A stretch of 64,000 bases of DNA from positions 28,041 to 92,040 of the forward strand of contig JAHIWS010000020.1 in NCBI GenBank assembly GCA_018815925.1, in the 5' to 3' direction. The position numbers and the translations under genes were made by a program. The notes beneath the pieces are model-generated. The model was given only the letters and a program-made list of their open reading frames with translations. It had not been told where the DNA came from and searched no databases. Each line of letters starts with the position of its first letter. Positions within the stretch are counted from its first letter, which is position 1. Source of the stretch: Nanobdellota archaeon (GTDB taxonomy: Archaea; Nanobdellota; Nanobdellia; Pacearchaeales; GW2011-AR1). Shown one piece after another: positions 37,935 through 63,406 of the stretch.

Positions 37935-39059
37935 ATGAAGATAATTCAGCTTACAGCTTTTTTTTTACCTGTTGAAGGAGGAATGGAGCAACATGTATTA
38001 AATCTTTGTAGAGAATTACAAAAAAATAACCATTCTGTAGAAGTTATTTGTTCAGATTCAATGAGAGAAGGAACAATTTTTATAAAAAAAGAAAAGATCC
38101 AAGGGATTAAAATTACAAGATATAAAACTTTTTGGAATATAACCAAACTATCAAAAATTTTTCCTGGTTTTATTTTTGATTTATTTAAAAAAGATTATGA
38201 TCTCTTACATGTTCATTCTTATAGGCAACCTTATACATTAATGGGTTTAATTGTGGCAAAGTTAATGAAAAAAAAATGCATAATAACTACTCATTGCCCT
38301 TTGCATCAAAAAGGAACCAGATCTAGAGGAACATATTTTTTAGCAGTTTTATATGACCGTATTTTTGGAAAAATTGCATCTAAATTTAACCACATAATAG
38401 GGATTGCAAATGAGGAAATATCTTTTTTCTCAAGGTATGGGATAAATAACAAAAAAATTACTATAATCCCTAATGGGATAACAAAAAAAGAATTTAAAAT
38501 AGGAAATAGGCAAGAATTCAGAAAAAAATATAAAATAAAAAAAAATGATTTTGTTGCATTATTTACTGGAAGAATTCACAAAACAAAAGGCCTCCAGAAT
38601 TTAAAATATGCTGTAGATAATCTCCCAAAAATAAAATTCGTTTTTGCAGGTTTAAATGATGGGTATATGAATTACTTAAAAAAAATGTACTGTAAGAATA
38701 AAAATGTGATTTTTACTGGTAAAATAGACCATCTTAAAATGCCTAATGCATATGCGGCAGCAGATATTTTTATTCTTCCTAGTGATTATGAGCCTTTTGG
38801 TATATCTCTTTTAGAGGCAATGGCTCAAAGATTACCTATAATTTCTACTAATCAAGGAGGGCCGGTCGATTTTATAACAAAGGATTTTGGATTTCTGATA
38901 AATCCAAAAAATCAAAAAGAATGGTTTAATTTAATAAATTATTTACTAAAAAATCCAAAAAAAAGAAAAAAAATGGGAAAATATGCTAAAAAAGAAGCTG
39001 AAAACTACCTCTGGACCAATATAGGAAAAAAAATAATAAAAGTGTATGAAACTTGTTAA
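37935..39059 (+). CDS. GT4-family glycosyltransferase
   Basis: The 374-residue GT-B fold enzyme has an N-terminal GGMEQHVLNLCRELQKNNH acceptor-side motif and a C-terminal donor-side motif EPFGISLLEAMAQRLPII, the E-x7-E of the GT4 family (GPGTF). It uses a nucleotide sugar to extend a glycan on the cytoplasmic face. It is the first gene of the glycan locus, with a promoter element shared with the sugar dehydrogenase gene. The exact sugar is unknown. Confidence 0.9.
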   Translation: MKIIQLTAFFLPVEGGMEQHVLNLCRELQKNNHSVEVICSDSMREGTIFIKKEKIQGIKITRYKTFWNITKLSKIFPGFIFDLFKKDYDLLHVHSYRQPYTLMGLIVAKLMKKKCIITTHCPLHQKGTRSRGTYFLAVLYDRIFGKIASKFNHIIGIANEEISFFSRYGINNKKITIIPNGITKKEFKIGNRQEFRKKYKIKKNDFVALFTGRIHKTKGLQNLKYAVDNLPKIKFVFAGLNDGYMNYLKKMYCKNKNVIFTGKIDHLKMPNAYAAADIFILPSDYEPFGISLLEAMAQRLPIISTNQGGPVDFITKDFGFLINPKNQKEWFNLINYLLKNPKKRKKMGKYAKKEAENYLWTNIGKKIIKVYETC

Positions 39060-40063
39060 ACCTCTTTTTTAAAATGTGTTTTAATTCTTTTTATTAAAAA
39101 AACAAAATTAAGAGGATATAATTTACTTTTTGGCATACCATTTTTTTCTTTACAATTTTTACACAAGTCATTTGATTTAAAATCATTTTTTATGTGTTGT
39201 GTTCTTAGTTTTTTCATTTTTTGATTGTTCCAAATTTCTTTTAAGGATTCTTTATTCAAATCACCTAAAACATACTTAGCATCATAGTCATAACAACAAG
39301 GAACAACTCTACCATCCCAGAGGATAGTCATCCTATGCCAAGCTCTGACACAGGGATAAGGGCTCCTCTTATGAAATGCTTTTGATAATTGTTCTTTGTC
39401 TGCCAACCTCTCTATATCTTTTGAAGAACCCTCCCAAGTAACAAAGTCTTTTATTTCAACCTCATCTACACCTTGTTTATCCCATTTTTTCTTGAACTCT
39501 TTTATTTTATTTTTTGTTATTTTCATATTTATCATAGCTATTACTATAAGAGGTTTTTTTCTTTTTCTTTTGTATTTGATTATCTCGTTTATGTTTGAAA
39601 CCGCTTTTTCATAATTGGCAGTAATTCCCCTAATTCTTTTGTACATTACTGGATCTGTTCCGTCTAAAGAAATATGTAGTTTGTCTAAACCTGCGTCAAT
39701 TATTTTTTTAGCCATCTCTAAATTTATAACAGAAGCATTAACTGAAATAAATGTTTTAATTCTTTTTTCTTTAGCATATTTTATCATTTTATCTAATTTA
39801 GGGTGTAATAGTGACTCTCCAAAATGATGTAGCCCAATACTAGGGGTGTATCCCTTTAATTGGTCAATTATTTTTTTATAAAGATTAATATCCATATGCC
39901 CTAATTTTCTTTTCATATATTTTCTTGGACACATTATACATTTCATAGGGCAATGATTTGTGGGTTCTATATTGTATACTTCAGGATACCCCAAACATTT
40001 TATTTTTCTATGGAAATAAGAATAAAAATTCAAGAATTTATTTACAAATTGTTTAAGATTCAT
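39056..40063 (-). CDS. Radical SAM/SPASM-domain enzyme
   Basis: In this 335-residue protein the radical SAM cluster motif is NHCPMKCIMCPRK (CxxxCxxC near residue 37-45). A SPASM-like C-terminal region has cysteines in RVVPCCYDYDAKYVLGD and CKNCKEK, binding auxiliary clusters. Members modify peptides or carbohydrates by radical chemistry. The substrate here is unknown; location inside the glycan locus suggests a sugar or lipid. Convergent with the GT4 gene by a 4-bp overlap. Confidence 0.85.
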   Translation of the reverse strand: MNLKQFVNKFLNFYSYFHRKIKCLGYPEVYNIEPTNHCPMKCIMCPRKYMKRKLGHMDINLYKKIIDQLKGYTPSIGLHHFGESLLHPKLDKMIKYAKEKRIKTFISVNASVINLEMAKKIIDAGLDKLHISLDGTDPVMYKRIRGITANYEKAVSNINEIIKYKRKRKKPLIVIAMINMKITKNKIKEFKKKWDKQGVDEVEIKDFVTWEGSSKDIERLADKEQLSKAFHKRSPYPCVRAWHRMTILWDGRVVPCCYDYDAKYVLGDLNKESLKEIWNNQKMKKLRTQHIKNDFKSNDLCKNCKEKNGMPKSKLYPLNFVFLIKRIKTHFKKEV

Positions 40064-40101
40064 TCATTTTTTTAAACAACACCCTTTAAAATGATTTCTA
40101 A

Positions 40102-40962
40102 TCAATCCTCCTCTAAAACCACTGGATTTTTTTGAATATATTCTTTATACCATTCAATGGTTTTTCTTAAACCTTCTTCTAAAGGTGTTTTGGGCATATA
40201 CCCTAATTTTTTAATTTCAGAACAATCTAAACTTACTTTTTGAGGTTGAGCTATTTCTGCTGAATAGCTATTTATTTGACTTTTGCTTCCTGTTAATTCT
40301 AAAATGTATTTGGCTTCATCATAAACATTGTACTCTTCTTTTCCACTAATATTATATTCTTTATTCCACTCATTAGAATTTATTGTCAGCATTGTTCCTT
40401 CAATAAAATCATCAATATAAGTAAAATCAAGGGTTTTAGTTAAAGGATTTCCAAAAATCTTTAATTCTTCACCTCTTAGTGCAGCTAGGATATGTAAATG
40501 AACAAGTCTTTTACTTAAATCCCAGAAAGGTCCATAGACTGTTGAAGGACGAATAATAATATATTCAATCCCATAAGAATTGTAAAAACCTTTACAAAGT
40601 TCCTCACCATAAATTTTAGAAGCAGTATAAGAATTTTTTTCAGGACTCAAAATCCTAGATGAGGAAAAAAAAACAAATTTTGGAATTTTATGTTTTCTAC
40701 AAAAATCTAAAGCATAAAAAGTCCCTTGAGCATTATTTAGATTAGCTATTTTTGGATCTGCAACCATCTTATTTATTTTAACATGTGCAGCTGCATGTAT
40801 GAAAAGGTCTATTGAAGTATCTATTTCTAAATTTTTTAACCAAGAAAGATCAGACCCAGACCTATGATCTATGCTTCCAACAATTTTGTGGCCTTCTTTA
40901 ATTAATCTTTTTTCCAAAGCAGAACCTATCAGCCCTTTATTTCCAGTAATAAAAATATTCAT
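40102..40962 (-). CDS. NAD-dependent sugar epimerase/dehydratase
   Basis: The 286-residue extended short-chain dehydrogenase has nucleotide-binding GNKGLIGSALEKRL (GxxGxxG) at the N-terminus, and catalytic Ser and Tyr-x3-Lys in SSSRILSPEKNSYTASKIYGE. Acts on nucleotide sugars (UDP- or GDP-linked). It is the neighbour of the UDP-sugar dehydrogenase gene, transcribed divergently. The specific reaction cannot be read from sequence. Confidence 0.88.
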   Translation of the reverse strand: MNIFITGNKGLIGSALEKRLIKEGHKIVGSIDHRSGSDLSWLKNLEIDTSIDLFIHAAAHVKINKMVADPKIANLNNAQGTFYALDFCRKHKIPKFVFFSSSRILSPEKNSYTASKIYGEELCKGFYNSYGIEYIIIRPSTVYGPFWDLSKRLVHLHILAALRGEELKIFGNPLTKTLDFTYIDDFIEGTMLTINSNEWNKEYNISGKEEYNVYDEAKYILELTGSKSQINSYSAEIAQPQKVSLDCSEIKKLGYMPKTPLEEGLRKTIEWYKEYIQKNPVVLEED

Positions 40963-41102: not shown

Positions 41103-41978
41103 ATGAAAATAGGTTTTATAGGGTTGGGTTTTGTTGGGGGTGCAACAAAACAAGTTTTTGAAAAAAATCACGAAACATTCACCTATGATAAATATAAAGA
41201 ACCTTATAATTCAGAAGAACATTTGAAGTCTGTAGCTGAAAATTCTGAAATTATTTTTTTATCTCTCCCAACACCTATGAAACCAAGCGGAGAAATAGAC
41301 TATTCTGCTATCTATGACTCTTTAGATAATTTAAAAAAAACCTTAGAAGAAATTAAAAGATCTCCTGAAGAAATTATAATTGTCATTAGATCAACATCAG
41401 TTTCAGGTTCTTCTGATAAACTTGCGGAACAGTATCCTTTTAGATTTGCAGTAAATCCAGAGTTTTTAACAGAAAGAAATGCTTTAGAAGATATGAAAAA
41501 AACAGACAAGGTAGTCATTGGAACAAGTTCTTTAGAAGATTATCAAAAGATATATCAAGCTTATCACCCTGTTTTCCCTTATGCTAGATATGTCCATGTT
41601 GATAGAAAGACTGCAGAAATGATAAAATATTCTGCAAATGTTTTTTTAACAGGGCAAGTAACTCTTGCAAATGAAATTTATCAAATTTGCCAAGTTCTTG
41701 GTGTAGATTATAAAACAATAAAAGAGGTTGTGTTGTTTGATAAGAGAATAGGAACCCATATAAACGTTCCAGGTCCTGATGGAGATTTAGGTTTTGGGGG
41801 AAAATGTTTCCCAAAAGACATTAATGCCTTAATTTATTTAGCTAGAGAAAAAATGTATAGGCCTTATTTACTTGAAGAAATGTGGAGGTTAAATGAAAGG
41901 ATAAGAACAAAAAAGGATTGGTTTGATATACCTGGAGCAACCTCTGAAAACCAGAATTTTAAAGAATTTAACAATTAA
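41103..41978 (+). CDS. Short UDP-glucose/GDP-mannose dehydrogenase-like protein
   Basis: The 291 residues have a Rossmann start, IGFIGLGFVGGATKQ; the central helix region with NPEFLTERNAL; and the catalytic cysteine in GFGGKCFPKD (about residue 240). The family (UGD/GMD, about 430 residues) oxidises nucleotide sugars to uronic acids, but here the C-terminal UDP-sugar-binding domain is absent and a short tail follows. Either a shortened enzyme or one with another substrate. It is the first gene after a conserved promoter element. Confidence 0.82.
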   Translation: MKIGFIGLGFVGGATKQVFEKNHETFTYDKYKEPYNSEEHLKSVAENSEIIFLSLPTPMKPSGEIDYSAIYDSLDNLKKTLEEIKRSPEEIIIVIRSTSVSGSSDKLAEQYPFRFAVNPEFLTERNALEDMKKTDKVVIGTSSLEDYQKIYQAYHPVFPYARYVHVDRKTAEMIKYSANVFLTGQVTLANEIYQICQVLGVDYKTIKEVVLFDKRIGTHINVPGPDGDLGFGGKCFPKDINALIYLAREKMYRPYLLEEMWRLNERIRTKKDWFDIPGATSENQNFKEFNN

Positions 41979-42028: not shown

Positions 42029-42505
42029 ATGCGTCCTTCTGAACATATATTTTTAGGAATAATCTTTTCCTTATTTTTATTTATCTTTTTTCCAAAAATA
42101 GGGTTTATAGGTTTTTTACTTATTTTTCTTTCAACCGTGTTAATTGATATAGACCATTATGTTTATTATGTTTACAAAAAAAGAGATTTAAGTTTAAAAA
42201 AAGCTAGAAAATGGAACCTTGAATTAGGTAAAAAGTGCTTTTATTTAATACAAAATAAAAAACAGAAAAATTTTCATGGGGTTTTCTGTTTTTTTCATGG
42301 AATTGAAATAATTATTATTATGTTTTTTTTATCGATTTTTTCAAGAATATTTTTATTTATTTCCTTGGGTTTAACTTTTCACCTCCTTTTAGATATTTAT
42401 TCCGAATATAGGTGTATTGGAAGAGTTACTAGTAAGTTTTCACTAATAGTTGATATCATAAGAAATAAAAAAACTGAATTTATTGAAGATTATCAAAAAT
42501 GTTAA
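42029..42505 (+). CDS. Membrane protein, YdjM/DUF457-like
   Basis: The 158 residues have three to four hydrophobic helices and a histidine-aspartate pattern, RPSEHIFLGIIFSL, DIDHYVYYVYKKRD, HGIEIIIIMF and HLLLDIYSE, like the LexA-regulated, membrane-bound predicted metal-dependent hydrolase family (YdjM). The conserved HxxxD positions suggest metal binding. It overlaps the PAP2 phosphatase gene by 7 bp. Confidence 0.65.
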   Translation: MRPSEHIFLGIIFSLFLFIFFPKIGFIGFLLIFLSTVLIDIDHYVYYVYKKRDLSLKKARKWNLELGKKCFYLIQNKKQKNFHGVFCFFHGIEIIIIMFFLSIFSRIFLFISLGLTFHLLLDIYSEYRCIGRVTSKFSLIVDIIRNKKTEFIEDYQKC

Positions 42506-42942
42506 TAAAAAAATTTTTTGAAGAGATAACTTTTCTAGGGGGGGTTCTTTTTTATAGTATTTTTTTATTATATTTTTTATTAGAACAAAAATACATTTAT
42601 TTTGGTATACTTTTGACTTCCTTAATTTTAGTATATTTTGTCACATTTCTCATAAGAATCTTTTATTTTAAAACCCGTCCAGAAAAAGTAAAATACAATA
42701 ATTTTTTAGAAAAAATAGATGCTTCAGCATTTCCTAGCATCCATGCGGCAAGAGTGTTTATTTTATTTCTTTTTTTTATTTCTTTTATTAATAATTTTTA
42801 TTTCTTTTTTTTATTTTTACTTTTTGTATTGTTTTTAACTATTTATTCTAGAATTTACCTTAGAAAACATGATATAGTGGATGTTTTTGGGGGGCTTATT
42901 CTAGGTACAATATCTTTTTTTGTATCCTTCTTAATTTGGTAA
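42499..42942 (+). CDS. PAP2-family lipid phosphatase
   Basis: The 147-residue membrane protein has the PAP2 motifs: KTRPEK (short form of KxxxxxxRP), FPSIHAAR (PSxH), and SRIYLRKHDIVDVFGG (SRxxxxxHxxxD). Enzymes of this type remove phosphate from polyprenyl or phospholipid phosphates at the outer face. It is convergent with, and next to, the DPPR-synthase-like gene, echoing the mycobacterial pair in which such a phosphatase handles decaprenyl-phosphoryl-5-phosphoribose. Confidence 0.85.
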   Translation: MLIKKFFEEITFLGGVLFYSIFLLYFLLEQKYIYFGILLTSLILVYFVTFLIRIFYFKTRPEKVKYNNFLEKIDASAFPSIHAARVFILFLFFISFINNFYFFFLFLLFVLFLTIYSRIYLRKHDIVDVFGGLILGTISFFVSFLIW

Positions 42943-43791
42943 ATAATAAAAACTAAAGATAATAATTATTAACCAAAATAACAAAGCCAGGATAATTTTC
43001 TTATCAAAAATAAATTTTTCAGGGTTTCTTATTTTTTCAGGAGAATTATATAGGTTTTGGAAAAACATAATTACTATATACAATGCTATGGGTACACTTA
43101 AAAGAAGTGTTGGTTTAAAATTTAAGACACTATAAATAGAAAAGAAAACAAATACACAAGCAATTGAAATTATTGATAAAATCTCTAAAATTTTTTTATC
43201 AGAACTAGTGAAATTTGGCCTGTATTTTTTAATCCCTTTCATCATAATTTCCAAAGAACGTTTTGAACTAACTAAAAATATAGATAGAAAAAAAGTTATA
43301 AGGATAACCCAAATAGAAACAGGGGATTTTATTATGAATGTTCCAGAGACAGCCCTTATCACAAAATTTAAAGAGATAAAAATAATATCTAAGTAAGGAA
43401 TATTTCTTATATCTAAATTATATATTTGGGAAAGAATAAAAAGTAGAAGGATAGAGTATAAAAAAAGACCTCCTAAAAATGAAGCAATTAGTAATGATAA
43501 TACAAAAAGGACAACAGAGGTTATTATTGCCGGATTTTTTTTTATTTTTCCAGATGCAATAGGGCGAGTGTTTTTTTCAGGATGGTTTTGATCTTTTTTT
43601 ATATCTAAAAGATCATTAATTATATAATAAGAAGAGGAAATAAAACAAAGTGAAATAAAACCAAGGATTGTCAGGAAAAAAAATTCTTTATTAAAAAGAT
43701 TTAATGAAAAAATAAGTGAAATAAAAATTATAAGGTTTTTATACCACTGCTCAACACGCAACAATCTCAAAGAATCCTTAATCTGCAACAT
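42931..43791 (-). CDS. UbiA-family decaprenyl-phosphate phosphoribosyltransferase-like protein
   Basis: The 286-residue protein from ATG 43791 has about nine transmembrane helices. The first prenyl-phosphate motif is YYIINDLLDIKKDQNHPEKN, with the HPxKxxRP tail typical of 5-phosphoribosyl-1-pyrophosphate:decaprenyl-phosphate synthases (UbiA subgroup, as in mycobacterial arabinan synthesis). The N-terminal LRVEQWYKN is also typical of that subgroup. It would transfer ribose-5-phosphate from PRPP to a polyprenyl phosphate, making a lipid-linked pentose donor. Overlaps the PAP2 gene by 12 bp. Confidence 0.85.
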   Translation of the reverse strand: MLQIKDSLRLLRVEQWYKNLIIFISLIFSLNLFNKEFFFLTILGFISLCFISSSYYIINDLLDIKKDQNHPEKNTRPIASGKIKKNPAIITSVVLFVLSLLIASFLGGLFLYSILLLFILSQIYNLDIRNIPYLDIIFISLNFVIRAVSGTFIIKSPVSIWVILITFFLSIFLVSSKRSLEIMMKGIKKYRPNFTSSDKKILEILSIISIACVFVFFSIYSVLNFKPTLLLSVPIALYIVIMFFQNLYNSPEKIRNPEKFIFDKKIILALLFWLIIIIFSFYYLPN

Positions 43792-43812
43792 ATACAAAAA
43801 ATATGAATAATC

Positions 43813-43818: not shown

Positions 43819-43842
43819 TACCTTTCTTTGACTTTTCTTCTT

Positions 43843-44889
43843 ATGAAGAAATTAATGGTTACAGGAGGTGCTGGATTTCTTGGGTACCATATTTGTAAAA
43901 AACTCTCTAAGGAATTTGACAAAATTATTATAACAGATATAGATTTTTTCAATAAAAAAGAATATGCTAAAAACATTGAATATTTTAAATTAGATGTAAG
44001 GGATAAGAAAGGGATGGAAAAATTAATAAAATTGCAAAAACCAGATTTTATAATCCATGGGGCTGCTGCTCTTCCTCTTGCCCAAAAAAAAACAATTTTT
44101 CAGGTTAATCTAGAGGGGATAAAAAATATTTTAGATCTTTCACTAAAAAATAAAATTAAAAGGGTTGTTTTTATTTCTTCTACAGCAGTATATGGGATTC
44201 CACAAAAATACCCTATTTGCGAAGAAGATCCTATGGTGGGTGTTGGGCCATATGGGAAAACAAAAATTATTTCAGAAAAATTGTGTGAAAAATATAGGAA
44301 AAAAGGATTATGTATTACAAGTATTAGACCCAAAACATTTATTGGGACAAACAGATTAGGTGTTTTTCAAATTTTATATGATTGGGTTGAGACTGGTGTA
44401 AAAATACCTATCATAGGAAATGGTAAAAATAGATACCAATTACTAGAAGTAGAAGATTTGGTAGATGCAATTTATTTAGCTTTGATAAAACCAAAAGATA
44501 AGGTGAATGATATTTTTAATGTGGGGGGGGAAAAATTTAAAACAGTCTATGAAGATGTTTCTGAATTATGCAAATTTGCAAACTCTGGAGCCAGGGTTAT
44601 GAGAACCCCTGCATTTTTGATAATTTTTGCCTTAAGATTTTTTGAGATGTTAAATTTATCTCCTTTATATAAATGGGTTTACGGAACTGCTCAAAAAGAT
44701 TCTTTTGTTTCTATAGATAAAATCAAGAAACAATTAGGGTGGGAACCCAGATACAGCAATGCCCAAGCACTTATACGTTCTTATAAATGGTATATAGATA
44801 ACAAACCCACACTTGCTAAAGAAGAAGGGATAACCCATAGAGTGCCTTGGGCCCAAGGGGTTTTAGGCTTATTTAAAAAAATCCTTTAG
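43843..44889 (+). CDS. NAD-dependent nucleotide-sugar epimerase
   Basis: The 348-residue extended short-chain dehydrogenase has GGAGFLGYHICKKL (GxxGxxG), HGAAALPLAQKK, catalytic SSTAVYG and YGKTKIISE (Y-x3-K). I chose ATG 43843 over the frame opening at 43828, since the shared TATA box lies about 27 bp before it. It resembles UDP-glucose 4-epimerase-like and DPR-epimerase-like proteins. Given the DPPR-synthase-like gene transcribed divergently, an epimerase acting on a lipid-linked ribose is possible, but not shown. Confidence 0.85.
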   Translation: MKKLMVTGGAGFLGYHICKKLSKEFDKIIITDIDFFNKKEYAKNIEYFKLDVRDKKGMEKLIKLQKPDFIIHGAAALPLAQKKTIFQVNLEGIKNILDLSLKNKIKRVVFISSTAVYGIPQKYPICEEDPMVGVGPYGKTKIISEKLCEKYRKKGLCITSIRPKTFIGTNRLGVFQILYDWVETGVKIPIIGNGKNRYQLLEVEDLVDAIYLALIKPKDKVNDIFNVGGEKFKTVYEDVSELCKFANSGARVMRTPAFLIIFALRFFEMLNLSPLYKWVYGTAQKDSFVSIDKIKKQLGWEPRYSNAQALIRSYKWYIDNKPTLAKEEGITHRVPWAQGVLGLFKKIL

Positions 44890-46131
44890 GATAATGTTTG
44901 TTACTTTTATGCCTGATTCTAAGGCTACATTCATATTTCTTATTTGAGGGTATGTTAGTTGAATTCCTGCAAAATAAACATCCCTTAGGGGGGTTTTGTA
45001 GGGTGGCATATATTTAGGATACTTAATATCATATATTGGTTCTGCATATTTTGTTTTAAACACTTTTGCCCATTTTATTTTGGATAGGGGGTAATATTTT
45101 TTTATTACCTGAAGGTATTCTTTTTTTATTATTTCTTCACTTAAATTCAAGTCCTCTTCACTTCCACCATATCTTAAAATCCAGTTTATTTTATCTTTAT
45201 AATTATCAGAAAGAACAGAATGTTGCATCAAAATATGTATTTTTTCATTAAAAAAATTTGTCCAATAAACTCCCTTTTCTAAAAAATTTTCGCTTCCAAA
45301 ACACACACTTACTGCAGGACAATATTTTATTTTTGATAATTGCTCTTTGAATGGTTTGGGGATTCCAATAGAAATATTTGTAAAAATTTCAAAAGGAATT
45401 GTATTTATTAAAATATCGTAATTTATTTTTTTACCTGAATTAATCAAATACTTTCCATTTAAGTTGATTTTTTGTATTTTTGAATTTATTTTTATTTTTC
45501 CTTTGTTTTTTTTAATTTCTCTTTCTAATCCATCTATAATACACTGGTATCCTTTTTCTGGAAATGAAAAAAAATCTTGAATTTCTTTTTCATATAATCT
45601 ATGTGCAAATTGTTTAGCAGAAATTTTGTTTAAAGATACACCAAATTTGTTTCTTGAATATAAATGGAAAAAAATTTTTTGAGTTACAACTTTTCCAGCG
45701 TATTTATCTAGCCATTTTTGAGCATCAAGATTTTCAGATATTTTTTTTGGATTTAATATAAATAAAGTATATGCTCCGAAAAGACCAAACCTTATTTTTT
45801 CATATAAATTAAGATACTTGAATTTTAACAAACCAAAAAAAGAATTAATTGGGTTGATTTTTTTATTAATTCCTATAGACACCTTAATTCTTTGCCAATT
45901 TAACTTAACTTCTTTTGAAAATCTTTGCAAGTATATCTGAGTAATTTTATTGCTTTTTATTATGTGGTGATAATACTTTGGAATTGTTTCTCCTTTATGA
46001 TTAAAATTAGCAGCTAAGCCTCCTAAATAAGATTCTTTTTCAAAAATTTTAACATTAAAGTATTTAGAAAGAATTTCTCCTGCTGTTAACCCTGCCAAAC
46101 CACCTCCTAAAATAACAATTGTCTTTTTCAT
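44869..46131 (-). CDS. FAD-dependent amine-oxidase-like / flavin sugar enzyme
   Basis: The 420 residues start with a dinucleotide-binding fold, IVILGGGLAGLTAGEIL and IFEKESYLGGLA, followed by PKYYHHIIKSN. The C-terminal VYFAGIQLTYPQIRNMNVAL is the second FAD motif. Such proteins are annotated as protoporphyrinogen-oxidase-like or UDP-galactopyranose-mutase-like in polysaccharide loci. Redox desaturation or isomerisation of a sugar or lipid is likely; the substrate is unknown. Overlaps the epimerase gene convergently (21 bp) and is coupled to the next epimerase gene by ATGA. Confidence 0.75.
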   Translation of the reverse strand: MKKTIVILGGGLAGLTAGEILSKYFNVKIFEKESYLGGLAANFNHKGETIPKYYHHIIKSNKITQIYLQRFSKEVKLNWQRIKVSIGINKKINPINSFFGLLKFKYLNLYEKIRFGLFGAYTLFILNPKKISENLDAQKWLDKYAGKVVTQKIFFHLYSRNKFGVSLNKISAKQFAHRLYEKEIQDFFSFPEKGYQCIIDGLEREIKKNKGKIKINSKIQKINLNGKYLINSGKKINYDILINTIPFEIFTNISIGIPKPFKEQLSKIKYCPAVSVCFGSENFLEKGVYWTNFFNEKIHILMQHSVLSDNYKDKINWILRYGGSEEDLNLSEEIIKKEYLQVIKKYYPLSKIKWAKVFKTKYAEPIYDIKYPKYMPPYKTPLRDVYFAGIQLTYPQIRNMNVALESGIKVTNIILKDFFK

Positions 46132-49217: not shown

Positions 49218-49631
49218 ATGAGGTCTTTTAAGAGAATTTTTAATAGGGAGATTTATAAACAATTTTTCAGATTTTGTTTCATAGGGTTGACAATTACTGT
49301 CTTTTCTTATATACTTTTTTTAATTTTGTATTATTTTTTGTCAATTAATTATATTTTTTCAGCAGGAGCAGGATTTATTGGAGGGGTTTTATTGGGCTTT
49401 GTTTTTAATAAAATCTATACTTTTAAGTCTAAAAGAAAATCTTTTTCAACAATTTTACAATATTTTTTAGTTTATGGGTTTTCTCTCTTTTTTACGATGT
49501 GGTTAATTAAATTTTTAGTAGAAAAGATGTATTTTAATCCAATAGTAGCAAACTTAATCCTTCAACCATTTATTGTATTAATTAATTTTTTTGGAACAAA
49601 AATACTCGTATTTAAAAATAAAAAATGGTAG
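49218..49631 (+). CDS. GtrA-like membrane protein
   Basis: The 137 residues have four transmembrane helices, an N-terminal FFRFCFIGLTITVFSYILF and GFIGGVLLGFVFNKIYTFKS, the GtrA signature (FxxNKxxTF). GtrA-like proteins are thought to help move polyprenyl-phosphate-sugars across membranes. Its end overlaps the flippase gene by 7 bp. TATA-like CTTTATAAGC lies about 27 bp before ATG. Confidence 0.9.
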   Translation: MRSFKRIFNREIYKQFFRFCFIGLTITVFSYILFLILYYFLSINYIFSAGAGFIGGVLLGFVFNKIYTFKSKRKSFSTILQYFLVYGFSLFFTMWLIKFLVEKMYFNPIVANLILQPFIVLINFFGTKILVFKNKKW

Positions 49632-55574: not shown

Positions 55575-56954
55575 ATGAAAATTATGCTTTGTTTGGCTCC
55601 ATGGGATTTATGGGAACAAGAAGAGGATACAATGTATCCCTTAGGATTGGCATATTTAGGAGCAATACTTGAGAAACACGGACATACAACAGAGTTGCTT
55701 AATTTAACTAATTCTAATTGGGATAAAATTAAGTTTAGTGCCGAAAAAAAAATAAAAGAATTTAATCCAGATGTTTTTGGAATTAGTATTTTATCAAATA
55801 GTAGAGTATCTACTAAAAAGGTTTTAACATTAGTTAGAAAAATAAGTCCTAAAATCATCATCATTGCAGGAGGAGTTCATACTACTTTTTTATATGAACA
55901 AATATTAAATTATTATCCTGTAGACTATGCGGTATTGGGAGAGGCCGATTACACTATTTTAGATTTAATAGAAGCAATAGAGAAAAAGAAACCACTATCT
56001 TTTTTTAGAAAGATTAAGGGAATAGCCTTTAAAAATAAAAATGAAATTATCACCAATTGTTCCCAAGAGAGAATTAAGAATCTTGACTTGTTGCCTTTTC
56101 CAAAACATGAATATTTTCAAAATATTATTAAAAAAAATAAAATTGCTTATATTATGAGTTCTCGTGGGTGTCCTTTTAATTGTACTTTTTGTCCAAGCTC
56201 CGCTTATTGGGGGAGGAGAATGGTTCAAAGAAGTGCAGAAAATGTTTTTGAAGAAATGCTGTATCTCAAGAAAAAATTTCCAGAGATTGAAATAATACGT
56301 TTTTTAGATGATGAGTTTGTAGTTAATAATCAAAGAGTAATTGAAATTTGTAAATTGATTATAAAAAATAATTTTAAAATAGCTTGGGGGTGTCTTGGAA
56401 GAGCATCTTCAATGAATGAAGAACTGTTAAAATGGATGAAAAAAGCAGGTTGTTTTGAAATTACTTTTGGGGTAGAAAGTGGATCTCAAAGGATTTTAGA
56501 CAGGATAGGAAAAAAAGTTAGAATTAAACAGATAATTGATACTTTTAAACTATGTAAACAATACAAAATTAATACAAGATGTTTAACAATGGTTGGAAAT
56601 ATTGGAGAAAATTCTGAAAGTGTAAAAGAAACAATTAAATTAGCTAAAATTCTAAAAATTAGAACAGAGCCTGCTATTTTGATTGTTTTTCCTGGAACAG
56701 AAGTTTATAAGGTTGCAAAACAAAAAGGTTTTCTTGATGATACATACTGGTTGGGCCAAGGTTTACCTCCTTTATTCAATGTTGAACATCCTAAATATAA
56801 ACTTTGGTGGTGGTCTTTTAAAACCGGATTAATAACAAATTTTTATGCAGATGATGGAGATCTAAATGGCTTTTTGAAGATGAAATTTCTTAATAAAATA
56901 AATTCCCATAATTTTTTAAGAATTTTTAAAAGATATGTTTCTGATAAATTTTAA
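55575..56954 (+). CDS. Cobalamin-binding-type radical SAM enzyme 1
   Basis: In this 459-residue protein the N-terminal B12-binding-type domain (about 1-140: YPLGLAYLGAILEKHGH, IIIIAGGVHTTFLYE) is followed by the radical SAM core with C199, C203 and C206 in SRGCPFNCTFCPSS. Class B enzymes of this kind methylate unactivated carbon or phosphorus, or modify lipids. Downstream text FGVESGSQRILDRIGK is a typical core helix. Convergent with a second enzyme of the type (4-bp overlap). Confidence 0.88.
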   Translation: MKIMLCLAPWDLWEQEEDTMYPLGLAYLGAILEKHGHTTELLNLTNSNWDKIKFSAEKKIKEFNPDVFGISILSNSRVSTKKVLTLVRKISPKIIIIAGGVHTTFLYEQILNYYPVDYAVLGEADYTILDLIEAIEKKKPLSFFRKIKGIAFKNKNEIITNCSQERIKNLDLLPFPKHEYFQNIIKKNKIAYIMSSRGCPFNCTFCPSSAYWGRRMVQRSAENVFEEMLYLKKKFPEIEIIRFLDDEFVVNNQRVIEICKLIIKNNFKIAWGCLGRASSMNEELLKWMKKAGCFEITFGVESGSQRILDRIGKKVRIKQIIDTFKLCKQYKINTRCLTMVGNIGENSESVKETIKLAKILKIRTEPAILIVFPGTEVYKVAKQKGFLDDTYWLGQGLPPLFNVEHPKYKLWWWSFKTGLITNFYADDGDLNGFLKMKFLNKINSHNFLRIFKRYVSDKF

Positions 56955-58330
56955 CTCCAGGATTGAGATCCAGAATATTTTCTAGTTATTTTTTTAAATT
57001 TTTTTAAAACGTGTTCGACATTTCCTCTTTTTACCCAATATATAGCTTTTTTTATACGTGTTTGATAATATCTATAATTCCAAAATTTTTCAGCTGTTTT
57101 TTCTAAAAGATTGTTTGGAATTTCGCTAAAATTATGTTTGATTGTTTTAAGGTCACCAGTCCAATCCGCCCATTCTTTCAATGTTTGAGGTTTTGTGATT
57201 TTACCTTCTTTAACTAAATCATCAAATATTTTACTTCCAGGAAGAGGATTAAATATTTTAACATCTGCAATATCTGGTTTAAATTTTTTTATAAAATTTT
57301 CAGTCATTTTCATTTCTTTAGTAGTTTCAGTAGGAATCCCTACCATAAAACTAGCATCATTAAAAATTCCAAATTTATTTATTAATTTTAAAGCTTCACC
57401 TTGTTTTTTAACAGTAATTTTTTTATTTAGGAAATCTAAAACTCTTTGACTTCCAGATTCAGAACCTAATTGTATTGTATTACATCCTGCTTTTTTCAAA
57501 GCCCCCAAAACTTCTGGATTAACAAAATCTGCTCTACCAAAAACAAAAAAACTTATTTTGTTTTTATAATTTTTTTCTAAAAAATTACATAATTCAATAC
57601 ACCTTTTTTTAAAAGTCATAAAATTTTCATCAGAAATAGTAAATTCAGTTACACCCCCCTTGTCAATAACTTCTTTAAACATTTTTTTTGTTTTTTCTAT
57701 ATCATAAAACCTAACACATGGATGCCCCTTTTCACCCCACATTTGAACATTATAGCAAAAATTACATGTTCCAGGGCACCCCCTGCTTGTACTAAGAAAA
57801 ATTTGAGAATATTTTTTAATATCAATTAAATCAAAACTAGGAAATTCAAGGTTTTTTATATTTAAAAATTTTCTTAAGGGGTTTTTATTGATATTTCTTA
57901 ATTTCTTAATTTTTTTAGGGTCTTTATCAAATACATCACAAAACTCTAAAAAAGCATCATCAGCTTCCCCCCTAATGATGTAATCTACAAAGGATTCTCT
58001 TAAAACAGAATCTGGTTCTATAGTAGGATGCACCCCTCCAACAATAATAATTAGGTTTGGGAATTTTTTTTTAATTAATGGTCCTAAATAAATTATATCT
58101 AAAAGCATAGAAGAAGTCATTGCAGTAAATCCAATTATGTCTGGGTTAAATTTCTTAATAAAATCAAAAAACAAGGAGTCATCTAAATTAACATTCCTAT
58201 CATATATTTTCACAGGATGTTTATTCTTTAAAGGGGCTGCAACCCACATTAAACTATAAGGAGCAGAATATTTTTCTTTTGACTTCTTTTTTAAATCCCT
58301 ATGGGGCTGAACTAAAAGCACTCTTGTCAT
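56951..58330 (-). CDS. Cobalamin-binding-type radical SAM enzyme 2
   Basis: About 459 residues from ATG 58330 (MTRVLLVQPHRD). The frame opens at 58354, but the TATA-like TATAAATA near 58362-58369 is only 10 bp upstream of that, so the later ATG is favoured. B12-binding-type domain at 1-140 (YSAPYSLMWVAAPLKNKH, IIVGGVHPTIEPDSVLRE), then SRGCPGTCNFCYN as the cluster motif and LGSESGSQRVLDFLNK. A relative of enzyme 1; the two are convergent, and may act on related substrates. Confidence 0.85.
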   Translation of the reverse strand: MTRVLLVQPHRDLKKKSKEKYSAPYSLMWVAAPLKNKHPVKIYDRNVNLDDSLFFDFIKKFNPDIIGFTAMTSSMLLDIIYLGPLIKKKFPNLIIIVGGVHPTIEPDSVLRESFVDYIIRGEADDAFLEFCDVFDKDPKKIKKLRNINKNPLRKFLNIKNLEFPSFDLIDIKKYSQIFLSTSRGCPGTCNFCYNVQMWGEKGHPCVRFYDIEKTKKMFKEVIDKGGVTEFTISDENFMTFKKRCIELCNFLEKNYKNKISFFVFGRADFVNPEVLGALKKAGCNTIQLGSESGSQRVLDFLNKKITVKKQGEALKLINKFGIFNDASFMVGIPTETTKEMKMTENFIKKFKPDIADVKIFNPLPGSKIFDDLVKEGKITKPQTLKEWADWTGDLKTIKHNFSEIPNNLLEKTAEKFWNYRYYQTRIKKAIYWVKRGNVEHVLKKFKKITRKYSGSQSWS

Positions 58331-58359
58331 TTTTAGTGTGTTTTCAAACATCATTAAAC

Positions 58360-58387: not shown

Positions 58388-60046
58388 ATGACAAAAAACA
58401 AGATTTTGTCTAACTTAAAAAATAAAAAACTTTTGCTTGTTGCATGGGGGGCAAGTATTAGTACACATTATCAATGTAGGGATTGGATACCTCCTTTTAA
58501 AAAAATATTCAAAGAAATAGTTATTTTTAGCCAGAGAGATTCTATTTTTCATCATGGAAAAAAAGAGATGAATAAAAACTTTTTAAATCTTTTAGCAAGA
58601 GAAAAACCAGATTATTTATTACTGGCACTAAACTATGATGAATTTTATACAGAAACTCTTTTAAAAATTAGAAAAATTTCCCCTCAAACAATAATTATTA
58701 ATTTTTTTGGAGATGATATGTGGAGATATGATGATTGGGGAAGACATTATTCTCTTTTTTCAGATTATATTTTCACTACTGAAAAAAAACACCCCTTTTT
58801 TATAAAAGACGGAATTGAAAAAGAAAAAATTTTTTTTGTTCACGGAGTTAATACGGAATTTTATAAACCATCTAAAACAAGTGTAAAATATGATGTAAGT
58901 TTTATAGGAGGTCCTATTAGGGATAGACCTGATTATATAGCCTTTCTTAAAAAACAAGGAATCAATCTTACTCTTTTTGGTTTTCAATGGGATAAATTTG
59001 AAGATTTAAAAGAAATTTATAAGGGAGTTCTTAGTCCAGGTGATTATGTAAAATTAGGGGGCCAAACAAAAATTAATCTAAGTTTTTCTAAAACAGCTTT
59101 AAAACAAAAAGGAGAAAAAGATACCCAATTTAAAGGACGTATTTTGGAGATTCCAGCAACAAACTCTTTTATTTTAATAGAAAAATTTTATGGTTTTGAA
59201 AAATTTTCAAAGAATTTTCAAAGGCTTTTATTTAGTGGCAAAGAAGATCTTCTTAAGAAAATAAAATATTATCTTGAAAATGAAAAAAAGAGAAAAGAAG
59301 CATCAAAAAAACTCTATAATGAAATAAAAAAAGATTACACCTGGTATGCTCTTTTTTTGAAAGCCTTTATAAATATAGAAAAAAAACCAATTTTTAGAAA
59401 ACAAAATTTTAATTTACACAAAAAAATAATATCTCTTTCTAGACAAGACTTATTTTTAGAACAAAGCTTGTTGAGGGATAAAATTAAAGATGCTGATTAT
59501 GTTAAATTTAAAACCAAAAAATCTTCTGAAAATAAATTTAGAGATTTTTTCCAATCACATTCTTTAGAAAAATCTAATAAACAAATTAGCTGTTGTGATT
59601 ATAATGTTTATTCCCCTTTAATAGGAAATTTCTTGATGTTCCAATCAAAAAAAGCTTTTAACTTTCTTACAAAAGAAAAATTTGATAATCTTATTATACC
59701 GGACCAGTTAATGTTAACCAAAGAATTTTTTTTAAAAAATATTAAAAAATTTCAAGCATATTTCAAAGGCAGAAAAGTGGATATTCTTGATGAAAATAAC
59801 AATATTTTTGTTTCAATCCCTTTAATTAATATTTTTAAAATCAAATTAAAAAAATATGAAATATCAGAAAAATTTTTTAGGCTTAAATTTTTGGACAAAC
59901 TTTATCCCATTTATTATCAAAAAAAATTTTCTATTTATCCTTTTAAATTATTTTTAGCAGGAGTCTTTGGAAAAAAATTTATTTTTGGTTTCTTTAAAGA
60001 AATAATTTTTAATAAATCTAATAAATATAAATTAAAATATATGTAA
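58388..60046 (+). CDS. CgeB-like glycosyltransferase with C-terminal extension
   Basis: In this 552-residue protein residues 1-330 resemble the CgeB-type GT-B fold: NFFGDDMWRYDDWGRHYSLF, VHGVNTEFYKP, YDVSFIGGPIRDRPDYIAFL and the donor-side QFKGRILEIPATNSFILIE. The C-terminal 220 residues are lysine- and aromatic-rich with no recognised domain, and look like a second, unrelated module. Glycosyltransferase function is likely for the first half; the acceptor is unknown. Confidence 0.75.
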   Translation: MTKNKILSNLKNKKLLLVAWGASISTHYQCRDWIPPFKKIFKEIVIFSQRDSIFHHGKKEMNKNFLNLLAREKPDYLLLALNYDEFYTETLLKIRKISPQTIIINFFGDDMWRYDDWGRHYSLFSDYIFTTEKKHPFFIKDGIEKEKIFFVHGVNTEFYKPSKTSVKYDVSFIGGPIRDRPDYIAFLKKQGINLTLFGFQWDKFEDLKEIYKGVLSPGDYVKLGGQTKINLSFSKTALKQKGEKDTQFKGRILEIPATNSFILIEKFYGFEKFSKNFQRLLFSGKEDLLKKIKYYLENEKKRKEASKKLYNEIKKDYTWYALFLKAFINIEKKPIFRKQNFNLHKKIISLSRQDLFLEQSLLRDKIKDADYVKFKTKKSSENKFRDFFQSHSLEKSNKQISCCDYNVYSPLIGNFLMFQSKKAFNFLTKEKFDNLIIPDQLMLTKEFFLKNIKKFQAYFKGRKVDILDENNNIFVSIPLINIFKIKLKKYEISEKFFRLKFLDKLYPIYYQKKFSIYPFKLFLAGVFGKKFIFGFFKEIIFNKSNKYKLKYM

Positions 60047-60051
60047 TTTTG

Positions 60052-60993
60052 TTATATTTTTTCTATTTCTTCAACTACAGAATTAACATCGATCCTACAC
60101 CTCTTTTGGATATTCTCTCTTCCGTAAATATAGAAGTAATCTTTTAATCCAATTCTTTTTAATTTTGTATTAAGGTTCCCATCCATAATAATTTCTGCAA
60201 TAATGCTTCCAAAACCACCATCTAAAAGATGTTCTTCTATAGAAACAATTGCCTTATATTTTGCCAAGGTATTTTTTAAGTCAGTGGAAATTGGTTTTAG
60301 CCTATAAATATCAATCACTCCAATGTTTCTCCCTTTTTCTAAAAATTTTTTCCTTATTTCTAATGCATTGTGAACCATATTTCCTGTAGCAATTATTGCA
60401 ATTTCTCCTCCTTTTTCTAATTCTTTGAATCCAGATGTAAAATCATCATATTGATAGTACTTTGATAAGTCTGGAACTAATTTTCTATCAAGTCTCGTGT
60501 AGGTTGGATTTGGAGATTTGTAGACAATTTCTGAAACATTTTTAGCCATATCACTATATGATGGAGAGTATATTTCTAAATTGGGGATAGCCCTCATAAT
60601 AGTGATATCTTCTGTTAAGTGGTGTGTAGGCCCAGAATCATCATATCCTACTCCTGCTCCAACCCCTAAAATATTAATTGGAATTTTCATAAGTCCTGCA
60701 TTTAATTTTATGAACTCATGGCATCTTGATGTTGTAAAAGGAGCAATAGCAAAAGTATAAACTTTTTTACCTTCTAATGCAAGACCTGTAGCAACAGCAA
60801 TCATGTTTTGTTCAGCAATACCTACATTTACAAAGTTTTGTGGAAGTTCTAATCTAAACAGATCTAATGCAGGAGCGCCCATGTCTGCATTTACCATCAC
60901 AACATTTCTATCTTTTTTGGCAAGCTCATGCATTTTACCTATAAATTCATCTCTCATATGTTTTTGATTATCCATTTTAAAAAAAACACTCAC
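60052..60993 (-). CDS. Transketolase, C-terminal subunit
   Basis: This 313-residue protein carries the Pyr domain (GKMHELAKKDRNVVMVNADM; FVNVGIAEQNMIAVATGLAL, with the catalytic Glu in AEQ) and the C-terminal transketolase domain (IGVIDIYRLKPI). Split transketolases are common in Archaea. The preceding gene encodes the N-terminal TPP domain and overlaps by 17 bp. Pentose-phosphate interconversion is expected, feeding ribose-5-phosphate and PRPP. Confidence 0.93.
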   Translation of the reverse strand: MSVFFKMDNQKHMRDEFIGKMHELAKKDRNVVMVNADMGAPALDLFRLELPQNFVNVGIAEQNMIAVATGLALEGKKVYTFAIAPFTTSRCHEFIKLNAGLMKIPINILGVGAGVGYDDSGPTHHLTEDITIMRAIPNLEIYSPSYSDMAKNVSEIVYKSPNPTYTRLDRKLVPDLSKYYQYDDFTSGFKELEKGGEIAIIATGNMVHNALEIRKKFLEKGRNIGVIDIYRLKPISTDLKNTLAKYKAIVSIEEHLLDGGFGSIIAEIIMDGNLNTKLKRIGLKDYFYIYGRENIQKRCRIDVNSVVEEIEKI

Positions 60994-61813
60994 TTAATTC
61001 TTGTTTTGCTTTTTCAGCTGCTTCTCCTCTTGGAGCTGCACCATGCATCAAAGGAAAATGCTCCATAGAACAAATACCTTTTCCTTTAATAGTGTCTGCA
61101 ATTATCACAAGAGGCTTCGTAAATCTAAAAGATCTAAAGTCATAAAGAGCGTTTAATAATTCCTTAACAGAATTTCCATTTACCCTTTTAACTTCCCATC
61201 CAAAAGACCTCCATTTATCTTCTAAAGGTTCTAAACTAAGGGCCCGTTCAGTATATTCAATAACCCCTAACCAATTTCTATCAATAATTGCTATTAAATT
61301 ATTTAGTCTATTATGTCCTGCAAACATTGCAGCTTCCCAATTAGAACCCTCATAAAGTTCTGCATCTCCTAATAAAACAAAAACAAAATGGTCTTTTCTA
61401 TCCATTTTAGCTGCAAGTGCCATTCCTGCACCAACACCCAACCCATGACCTAAAGACCCTGTAGTAATTTCTACTCCAGGCACATCACATTGTAAATGAA
61501 CTCCAAATTTTGCGTTTTCTTTACAAAAATCATTAAGCCATTCTTTAGGAAAAAAACCTTTATCAGCAAGAGTAACATATAAAATAGGGCTTCCTTGACC
61601 TTTACTTAAAATAAATCTGTCTCTTCCATCCCATTTAGGATTTCCTGGCTTTTGTCTTAGAATATTTCCATAATATAAAACAGCAAGTATTTCAGCACAA
61701 GACATAGAAGAAGTAACATGACCTGTACAAGCTCCAATACATAGGTTAAGAGTAGATTGTTTTAATTCATGTGCCTTTTTTTCTAATTCTTTTATGATAT
61801 TTTCTTGCATCAT
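60977..61813 (-). CDS. Transketolase, N-terminal subunit
   Basis: The 278-residue TPP-binding subunit has TGSLGHGLGVGAGMAL, GDAELYEGSNWEAAMFAG (TPP motif with GDA instead of the usual GDG) and HFPLMHGAAP at the C-terminus. It forms the active enzyme with the overlapping gene. Two ATGs (61813, 61810) are possible starts. Confidence 0.93.
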   Translation of the reverse strand: MMQENIIKELEKKAHELKQSTLNLCIGACTGHVTSSMSCAEILAVLYYGNILRQKPGNPKWDGRDRFILSKGQGSPILYVTLADKGFFPKEWLNDFCKENAKFGVHLQCDVPGVEITTGSLGHGLGVGAGMALAAKMDRKDHFVFVLLGDAELYEGSNWEAAMFAGHNRLNNLIAIIDRNWLGVIEYTERALSLEPLEDKWRSFGWEVKRVNGNSVKELLNALYDFRSFRFTKPLVIIADTIKGKGICSMEHFPLMHGAAPRGEAAEKAKQELSECFF

Positions 61814-61912
61814 AATCTAACCAAATATCTACTTTTAATATTTTCTATTGTAAACTATATATTTTAAGTAAACCATAATAAACTTTAAGAACAGGAATTT
61901 ACTTTTGTGACT

Positions 61913-63406
61913 ATGGAAAATTATGGTCTTGATCTCTTTTTAATTAATGTTGGAGGAACAAAGAAAAGAGTTTACCAAGAATTAAGTAAAGATTATTCTG
62001 CTATAGAACCTCCTTTTTGGGCAGCATTAACTGCAGGCTTTATTAGAAAAAAAGGTTTTTCTGTGGACATACTTGATGCTAATGCAGAAAACCTTACCTA
62101 TGAAGAAACAGCAAAATTAATTGAAGAAAAAAATCCAAGGTTTGTTAATATTGTAGTTTATGGGCAACACCCTTCAGCATCCACTCAGTTAATGACTGGT
62201 GTTGGTACTCTTTGTAATTTAATTAAATCAGAAAACAAGGAAAGAAAAATTATTTTAACAGGTCTGCATCCTTCGGCGGTACCTAAAAGAACCATTGAAG
62301 AAGAAAATTGTGATTTTGTGTGCGAAGGTGAAGGTTTTTATACAATTTTAGAACTTTTAAAGAACAAGAGTTTAAATGAAATCCCTGGATTATGGTGGAA
62401 AGAAGAAGAAAAAATAAAGAACAATCTTAGGTCTCCAAATGTATTAAATCTAACAGAAGAATTGGATGAGGTTGCTTGGGATTTATTACTTTTAAAAAAA
62501 GGAAAATATAAGGCACATAATTGGCAGTGTTTAGATAATTTAGGACTAAGGCCTTATTATGCATCTCTTTCTACAAGTATGGGTTGTCCTTTTAATTGCA
62601 ATTTTTGTTCAATTAAAGCTACTTTTGGAGGAGAAAGAAGAATAAGATACTGGGATCCTAATTGGGTTTTAAATCAAATTGATATTCTTGTAAAAGAATA
62701 CAATGTAAAGGTTATAAAAATAATTGATGAGATGTTTATTTTTAATTCTGAACATTATTTGAAAATAGCAGATGGATTAATAGAAAGAAATTATGATTTG
62801 AATATCTGGGCCTATGCAAGAGTAGATATAACTAAAAATGTTAATATAGATACTTTAAGAAAACTCAGAAAAGCAGGATTTAAATGGCTTTGTTTAGGTT
62901 TTGAGGCAGGAAGTGAAGAAGTTTTACAAGATGTTAAAAAAGGAACTTTTACTAAACAAGACATGTTGGATGTGAGTAAAAAAGTTAGAGATGCCGGAAT
63001 AAATATTTTAGCTAATTTTTTATTTGGATTGCCTGAAGATAATTTTGATACAATGCAAGAGACCTTGGATCTTGCTATTAAAATGAATTGTGAATTTGCA
63101 AATTTCTACTGCACAACTGCCTGGCCAGGTTCTGAACTTTATAGAGAGGTTCTTGAAAAAAATACAAAACTTCCAAAAAAATGGGAAGATTATGCCCAAC
63201 ACGCTTATGCATTCATACCTTTACCAACAAATAATTTGTCTCCAAAAGAAATTTTAGAGTTTAGAGATTATGCTTTTGATACTTATTTTAAAAACCCAAG
63301 ATATCTTAAAATGATTGAAGAAAAATTTGGAAAACAAGCACGAGAACATATAGAAGAAATGACAAATTTTAAATTAAAAAGAAAGTTGTATGGAGATATT
63401 AAATAA
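61913..63406 (+). CDS. Cobalamin-binding-type radical SAM enzyme 3
   Basis: 497 residues from ATG 61913, preferred over GTG two codons earlier. N-terminal B12-binding-type domain (about 30-150: PPFWAALTAGFIRKKGFS, IILTGLHPSAVPKRT), then the cluster cysteines C225, C229 and C232 in STSMGCPFNCNFCSIK and core sequence LGFEAGSEEVLQDVKKG. It is the third enzyme of this class in the locus. The C-terminus has an additional 120-residue region. Substrate unknown. Confidence 0.88.
   Translation: MENYGLDLFLINVGGTKKRVYQELSKDYSAIEPPFWAALTAGFIRKKGFSVDILDANAENLTYEETAKLIEEKNPRFVNIVVYGQHPSASTQLMTGVGTLCNLIKSENKERKIILTGLHPSAVPKRTIEEENCDFVCEGEGFYTILELLKNKSLNEIPGLWWKEEEKIKNNLRSPNVLNLTEELDEVAWDLLLLKKGKYKAHNWQCLDNLGLRPYYASLSTSMGCPFNCNFCSIKATFGGERRIRYWDPNWVLNQIDILVKEYNVKVIKIIDEMFIFNSEHYLKIADGLIERNYDLNIWAYARVDITKNVNIDTLRKLRKAGFKWLCLGFEAGSEEVLQDVKKGTFTKQDMLDVSKKVRDAGINILANFLFGLPEDNFDTMQETLDLAIKMNCEFANFYCTTAWPGSELYREVLEKNTKLPKKWEDYAQHAYAFIPLPTNNLSPKEILEFRDYAFDTYFKNPRYLKMIEEKFGKQAREHIEEMTNFKLKRKLYGDIK

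Follow-up and report, generated by a model that had tools for sequence, protein, structure and literature searches.

A stretch of archaeal genome in which radical S-adenosylmethionine (SAM) enzymes crowd among glycosyltransferase genes raises the question of what these enzymes act on and how they came to be gathered. The stretch, called the window here, comprises 64,000 nucleotides of contig JAHIWS010000020.1 (positions 28,041 to 92,040, forward strand; assembly GCA_018815925.1) from a Nanobdellota archaeon, and forms the end part of contig C13 of a 0.93 Mb assembly (genome G000; 29 contigs, 88% complete) that encodes PolD DP2 and Cdc6/Orc and whose small size and gene content suggest an archaeon of DPANN type. 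Six radical-SAM genes lie between positions 39056 and 63406. In our judgement they probably belong to the secDF-proximal part of a surface-glycan island in which radical-SAM enzymes tailor sugars, and one of them, B12rSAM3, would form with a split transketolase (TktN/TktC) an acquired bacterial cassette for a C2-branched or longer sugar.

An initial annotation, made from the sequence without database searches, had described six radical-SAM genes at this place, three of SPASM type and three with B12-binding domains, among glycosyltransferases and methyltransferases, and that description held throughout. All six open reading frames (ORFs) are real, matching Radical_SAM PF04055 at 48.7-93 bits (gathering score 29.5), and CxxxCxxC is intact in each. 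SPASM PF13186 was found in three at 44.5-72.8 bits (gathering score 21.5): SPASM1 (39056..40063, minus strand), SPASM2 (51196..52074, plus strand) and SPASM3 (53678..54670, plus strand). Against the SPASM definition of PMC6231123, their four ordered cysteine positions correspond to the one-cluster Twitch layout and not to the seven-cysteine SPASM form. The other three carry B12-binding PF02310 (58.5-77.5 bits versus 32.1) ahead of the radical-SAM barrel: B12rSAM1 (55575..56954, plus strand), B12rSAM2 (56951..58354, minus strand) and B12rSAM3 (61907..63406, plus strand), the last starting at GTG 61907 or ATG 61913, a trivial difference. By Pfam content the six are interspersed with glycosyltransferases, SAM methyltransferases, epimerases, a Wzx-type flippase and GtrA, with a UDP-sugar dehydrogenase, UbiA and PAP2 as further glycan-type neighbours. 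Of 14 PF04055 matches in the genome, six fall within this locus, where uniform placement would give about 0.37 per 24 kb (P ~2e-6, computed post hoc). Tandem expansion of one enzyme was ruled out by a tree of 62 sequences, in which the three B12-type enzymes of the window stand at different places.

About 50 relatives were searched with the secD, SPASM and B12rSAM3 proteins. In 16 relatives, 46 of the SPASM or B12 radical-SAM matches up to 60 kb from secD lay downstream of it and 3 upstream; counted by genome, the side was downstream in 14 and upstream in 1 (sign test, P=0.001). Contiguous islands extending from secF-secD as far as a conserved block at the right border were read in G013, G021, G029 and G036 (a relative at order level), with 5, 4, 4 and 9 radical-SAM genes, respectively; elsewhere contig breaks make such counts lower bounds. 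The right-border block consists of homologues of genes 17620 and 19120 of contig C10 of the window's own genome, followed by two or three genes (L146_GPT, L146_UppF, L146_2069). Beyond it stand secY and the spc ribosomal operon in G013, G021 and G029, and the stretch read in G036 stops inside the block. The left border in the window, secF-secD at 35466..37881 (plus strand; Pfam SecD_SecF_C), is the same in relatives. SPASM-type genes recur in the relatives' secDF islands, and a B12rSAM1 match of 642 bits adjoins a CgeB-like glycosyltransferase gene in the secD-downstream island of G236. The glycan island has a fixed chromosomal address directly downstream of secF-secD, with borders shown in relatives and a very variable gene content. 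The initial annotation had proposed to look for the same cluster in relatives; linkage to glycan genes is conserved across family and order. Strict conservation of the six-gene set was rejected: close relatives of B12rSAM3 were found in only two other archaeal genomes, and those of SPASM2 in two.

The window stops at the end of contig C13. The start of contig C10 (L015, G000:C10:1-20000) carries, in order, orthologues of genes from the right-hand half of the G013, G021 and G029 islands, then SecY and spc genes; it also holds four further radical-SAM genes and an NTP_transferase gene. In G236 the orthologue of one of these radical-SAM genes (C10:873) overlaps the B12rSAM3 orthologue. Because of this synteny with G013, G021, G029 and G236, and not by a sequence join, the C13 end and the C10 start most likely form one predicted island, whose length would be about 46 kb or more. 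Of the genome's 14 radical-SAM genes, 10 lie in these two pieces, as do the genes for all six of its B12-binding proteins. Two B12-type radical-SAM families on C10 (L015:2978-4516 and L015:17620-19083) form short branches across the archaeal family, one of them reaching class level, and adjoin glycosyltransferase and polysaccharide-deacetylase genes.

B12rSAM3 falls in a 10-row clade (Shimodaira-Hasegawa-like approximate likelihood ratio test, SH-aLRT, 100) whose bacterial members come from Azospirillum, Solidesulfovibrio, Bdellovibrio, Verrucomicrobia, an Olavius symbiont and Rhodospirillales; among 279 genomes (E <= 1e-60), the only close archaeal relatives found were in G020 (60%) and G236 (58%). 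A split transketolase adjoins the B12rSAM3 orthologue in L029, L030, L043, L060, L074, L079 and Azospirillum argentinense, and in Solidesulfovibrio magneticus a pyruvate-dehydrogenase-type E1 alpha/beta pair takes its place, so that B12rSAM3 stands beside one or the other in the window and at eight bacterial loci. Bacterial partners include an HddA-like kinase, an HddC-like nucleotidyltransferase, a GDP-L-fucose-synthase-like short-chain dehydrogenase/reductase (SDR), an epimerase, a NUDIX protein and a DegT enzyme, each cassette locus holding part of this list. The NUDIX gene adjoins or lies near the B12rSAM3 orthologue in two Azospirillum and in Solidesulfovibrio. In G020 a single block comprises B12rSAM3 together with Fcl-like, epimerase and kinase-like genes. 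In the window the order is NUDIX (63407..63820, minus strand), B12rSAM3 and the divergent tktN-tktC, a divergent layout identical to that on an A. argentinense plasmid. B12rSAM3 is linked across phyla with a split transketolase or E1 alpha/beta pair and with kinase, nucleotidyltransferase, SDR and DegT genes. Where aminotransferases have the pyridoxal phosphate (PLP)-binding lysine, the cassette DegT enzymes carry histidine, a replacement characteristic of C3-dehydratases (ColD, RfbH and E1 among them). As a separate observation, Streptomyces phage SF3 (NC_028952.1:26253-27506) has a B12-binding radical-SAM gene with 22% identity to B12rSAM3.

The transketolase itself is divided between TktN (60977..61813, minus strand) and TktC (60052..60993, minus strand; Pfam Transket_pyr and Transketolase_C), and its GDxE cofactor motif is present. 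TktN clustered (support 99) with the copies of Bdellovibrio and the Olavius symbiont, apart from archaeal transketolases. Its pocket motifs read TGHVTS and SKGQ, where the canonical forms are SGHPGG and SKGH. The H-to-Q change was rejected as a feature common to every TktN linked to a radical-SAM gene, since SKGH is retained in the copies of Rhodospirillales and A. argentinense; a more widespread departure from the canonical motifs is that PGG no longer follows GH. A two-carbon transfer step would fit this cassette, because an E1 alpha/beta pair replaces the transketolase in the equivalent cassette. Beside this, the secDF island of another relative (L127:5525-12126, G007:C23) has, next to its B12-type radical-SAM genes, a His-type DegT, an Fcl-like SDR and an E1 alpha/beta-like pair; judged by these genes, it is a second putative thiamine pyrophosphate (TPP) sugar cassette in an archaeon.

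Of the SPASM enzymes, SPASM2 aligned by phmmer with BtrN (4M7T) at E=1.4e-28; the alignment covers residues 47-286 of 292, a near full-length homology, with matching cluster cysteines (59/63/66 and 220, 238/239, 282, 285). Arg203, in an RGG motif, aligns with an arginine of BtrN that we take to be catalytically important. Orthologues with 56-58% identity were present in 2 of 137 other family genomes. The nearest Protein Data Bank (PDB) sequence to SPASM1 was also BtrN (4M7S, E=4.5e-17), in two separate stretches short of near full-length homology; its auxiliary cysteines are 238, 256/257, 301 and 304. SPASM3 (auxiliary cysteines 261, 279/280, 324, 327) likewise lacks near full-length homology to BtrN, its nearest PDB sequence being 5WGG over the N-terminal part only. 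The nearest relatives of solved structure or known activity, BtrN for two SPASM enzymes and AprD4 (among the first matches) for two B12-type enzymes, have sugars or aminocyclitols as substrates.

By their order of PF02310 then PF04055, B12rSAM1-3 are assigned to the cobalamin-dependent radical-SAM superfamily. Their best NCBIfam models, HpnJ and BchE, scored 115-170 bits against cut-offs of 481-578, so the likeness is at superfamily level only. Membership in HpnJ, BchE, HpnR, AprD4, PhpK or TIGR04295 was rejected on score (best 170 bits versus 481), TIGR04295 giving 38.1-69.3 bits against a cut-off of 400. In the PDB the B12-type enzymes matched AprD4, OxsB, CysS, TokK and 9CCB at low identity; B12rSAM2 matched 9CCB and AprD4 6FD2, and AprD4, solved with paromamine, was among the top sequences for B12rSAM2 and B12rSAM3. 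An AlphaFold model of B12rSAM3, of low confidence (mean predicted local distance difference test score, pLDDT, 62) and used for fold class only, matched OxsB, TsrM, AprD4 and CysS. OxsB, HpnJ, BchE, PbsB and ladderane synthase are listed in a recent paper as non-methylating members (PMC13142503), so methylation is not to be assumed.

These results can be assembled into a working scheme. We infer from the sequences that the substrates would be sugars, whether free, nucleotide-bound or in the growing glycan, rather than peptides. SPASM2 would oxidise a sugar hydroxyl to a ketone or epimerise it, its predicted auxiliary cluster accepting the second electron, and the B12-type enzymes could perform C-methylation, dehydration, or rearrangement of a ring or chain. 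B12rSAM3 and TktN/TktC would have been gained horizontally as a bacterial cassette, in which TktN/TktC may add a two-carbon ketol unit to a keto- or aldose acceptor, giving a C2-branched or longer sugar, and B12rSAM3 may then remodel the branched or chain-extended nucleotide sugar. The acceptor of the transketolase, the order of the steps and the use of B12 are also what we infer. A more specific proposal is tentative, and we would sooner doubt it than rely on it: B12rSAM3 and the split transketolase would constitute a cassette of a kind not yet described, shared between domains, for making an extended or two-carbon-branched nucleotide sugar and then remodelling it by B12 and radical chemistry. 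The cassette would be carried in a glycan island of fixed position in which these DPANN-type archaea concentrate their B12-type radical-SAM enzymes. The initial annotation had expected radical C-methylation or rearrangement of sugars or lipids. Surface sugars emerged as the best reading; C-methylation was not favoured over dehydrogenation or rearrangement and is just one option, because the relatives include a dehydrogenase, a diol dehydratase and ring-rearranging enzymes. The island's constant address and the cross-domain sugar cassette at its cut end are the stronger results. Its further suggestion that such chemistry is undescribed for organisms of this kind stood in part: radical-SAM lipid enzymes (tetraether and calditol synthases) have been described for archaea generally, and a literature search on radical SAM in DPANN glycan loci found nothing relevant on this group.

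Several observations weigh against this interpretation. None of the radical-SAM proteins reached an NCBIfam equivalog cut-off, and function within the SPASM/Twitch subfamily is hard to predict from sequence similarity (PMC6231123). The window's genome as assembled (88%) contained no His-type DegT and one weak DegT match on another contig, and the archaeon's product therefore need not be a 3-deoxy sugar. Since the B12rSAM3 copies of G020 and G236 have no adjacent transketolase, the two need not occur together. Six of the bacterial loci with a linked transketolase came from a search with TktN, which makes the linkage at these six partly one of construction; among four unbiased plasmid matches, two had a TPP enzyme nearby and two had just kinase, NUDIX or Fcl-like genes. 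Finally, a FecCD/BtuC-type permease for B12 uptake was not found in the archaeon's own genome (88% complete), and B12 use by the B12-type enzymes is consequently putative. Six proteins with B12-binding domains are nevertheless encoded there.

Other explanations share part of this evidence. TktN/TktC could be an ordinary transketolase for pentose and heptose phosphates in a reduced pentose pathway, unrelated to B12rSAM3: the cofactor motif is present, small archaeal genomes need pentoses, and a PfkB-family kinase is encoded at 33604. The grouping of TktN with radical-SAM-linked bacterial copies rather than archaeal ones, the departure of its substrate pocket from the canonical motifs and the divergent arrangement shared with A. 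argentinense make this rather unlikely. Slightly less probable still, and unlikely in our view, is that the B12-type enzymes modify lipids or a lipid carrier in the manner of HpnJ, GDGT-ring (glycerol dialkyl glycerol tetraether) or calditol synthases, with the glycan genes adding a head group. UbiA, PAP2 and GtrA lie within the locus, HpnJ and BchE are the best models for B12rSAM1-3, and radical-SAM lipid enzymes exist in archaea (PMC8941075, PMC9433317), but the model scores are far under their cut-offs and, in bacteria, the true closest relatives of B12rSAM3 have nucleotide-sugar genes as neighbours.

That the island is a recombination hot spot gathering unrelated foreign genes, its radical-SAM enzymes having no common purpose, would suit the strong variation in gene content, the bacterial origin of B12rSAM3 and TktN, and the rarity of SPASM2 and B12rSAM3 orthologues. 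We consider it improbable, since some of the island's radical-SAM genes have orthologues conserved throughout the family and outside it (the L015_17620 and L015_2978 clades) and random uptake would not confine all B12-binding proteins of the genome to the island. Maturation of peptides by the SPASM enzymes, of the RiPP (ribosomally synthesised and post-translationally modified peptide) or quinohaem type, with an incidental glycan neighbourhood, appears very improbable. Many weakly matched SPASM models are peptide maturases, and 5WGG is the best solved match of SPASM3; yet the largest intergenic gap in the cluster is at most 140 bp, leaving no space for a precursor gene, and a RiPP cluster was rejected on this ground. 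In addition, SPASM2 has a single, BtrN-like auxiliary cluster, SPASM-type genes recur in relatives' islands, and SPASM2 and SPASM3 overlap methyltransferase genes. The initial annotation had framed its own counter-case as unrelated, peptide-acting families without conserved glycan linkage; the enzymes do come from different families, while the glycan linkage is conserved and the lack of any gap over 140 bp argues against peptide maturation. Tailoring of surface sugars thus continues to be our preferred explanation.

The remaining genes of the locus are of glycan type for the most part. Next to secF-secD lies GT4a, a glycosyltransferase of family 4 (37935..39059, plus strand; Pfam Glycos_transf_1, 138 bits). 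After SPASM1 come an NAD-dependent epimerase/4,6-dehydratase-like gene (40102..40962, minus strand; Pfam; best NCBIfam model dTDP-glucose 4,6-dehydratase at 106.6 bits, under cut-off) and a UDP-glucose/GDP-mannose dehydrogenase family gene (41103..41978, plus strand; Pfam). A PAP2 phosphatase (plus strand) and a UbiA prenyltransferase (minus strand) occupy 42499..43797 by Pfam, in the order seen in G013. They are followed at 43828..47063 by an epimerase (plus strand), a PRK07233-like flavin adenine dinucleotide (FAD) oxidoreductase (minus strand) and a second epimerase (minus strand), a block order kept in G013, and at 49218..51160 by a GtrA-like protein and a Wzx-type flippase (plus strand; Pfam PF04138, PF01943). 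SPASM2 overlaps a class I methyltransferase gene at 52061, which in turn overlaps the glycosyltransferase gene GT4b at 52537 (together 52061..53616, plus strand; ORF list and Pfam). SPASM3 overlaps an FkbM-type methyltransferase gene (54663..55526, plus strand; Pfam PF05050) by 8 bp, and a CgeB-like glycosyltransferase (58388..60046, plus strand; Pfam PF13524) separates B12rSAM2 from tktC.

Some features at the left side of the island were observed in their own right. UbiA, PAP2, two epimerases, the FAD enzyme and GtrA (window 42499-47063 and 49218) form a block of conserved order in G013. UbiA resembles decaprenyl-phosphate phosphoribosyltransferase (NF008977, 161.7 bits versus a cut-off of 234), which suggests a putative polyprenyl-phosphate-pentose pathway in an archaeon. 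At 42029-42505 a 158-aa membrane protein with no Pfam match is encoded; its homologue lies beside secD in most relatives read (for example L133, L138, L143, L147). The PfkB-family kinase upstream of secF (33604-34605) has a homologue near secF in G021, and by eye its start resembles the RfaE/ADP-heptose kinase domain.

Two testable statements follow from the sugar-tailoring interpretation: that these archaea would use B12-type radical chemistry almost only for their cell-surface glycan, at one chromosomal address, and that a bacterial cassette with a split transketolase and a B12-type radical-SAM enzyme would have crossed into them. Azospirillum argentinense and Solidesulfovibrio magneticus are named strains that carry the cassette and should be culturable, so its sugar product can be sought directly there, unlike in the uncultured archaeon.

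Compared with known systems, SPASM2 is like BtrN, the 2-deoxy-scyllo-inosamine dehydrogenase (PDB 4M7T), in its Twitch type, cluster cysteines and aligned RGG arginine, and differs in its setting, which is an archaeal glycan island and not a cluster for an aminoglycoside, and in having about 46 extra N-terminal residues. B12rSAM1-3 share domain order and fold with AprD4, OxsB, HpnJ and BchE but fall far under all equivalog cut-offs, and no description of such enzymes in secDF-linked glycan loci of this group was found in the literature. TIGR04295 (B12_rSAM_oligo), whose short name suggests oligosaccharide loci, has the same succession of B12-binding and radical-SAM domains. The yersiniose pathway, with a C3-dehydratase DegT and the TPP-dependent YerE, resembles the bacterial cassettes in pairing a His-type DegT with a TPP enzyme; the cassettes differ in their GDP- rather than CDP-type genes and lack of YerE, and the window's genome in lacking a His-type DegT. 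That a TPP enzyme can attach a two-carbon branch to a keto sugar is established for YerE, and one E1 alpha/beta pair has been studied in vitro for this reaction (PMC12247030, PMC4425429, PMC4753412). Ketone-branching by split-gene transketolases has been proposed, in all cases from Streptomyces (reviewed in PMC12247030). If our proposal is true, the window would hold the first such enzyme outside Streptomyces and the first in Archaea. The split transketolases of miharamycin and amipurimycin and the E1 alpha/beta pairs of avilamycin and paulomycin are like the window in placing a split TPP enzyme amid deoxysugar genes. In contrast to those, the cassette type seen in the window is archaeal, Bdellovibrio, Verrucomicrobia and alphaproteobacterial rather than Streptomyces, and it is tied to a B12-type radical-SAM enzyme.

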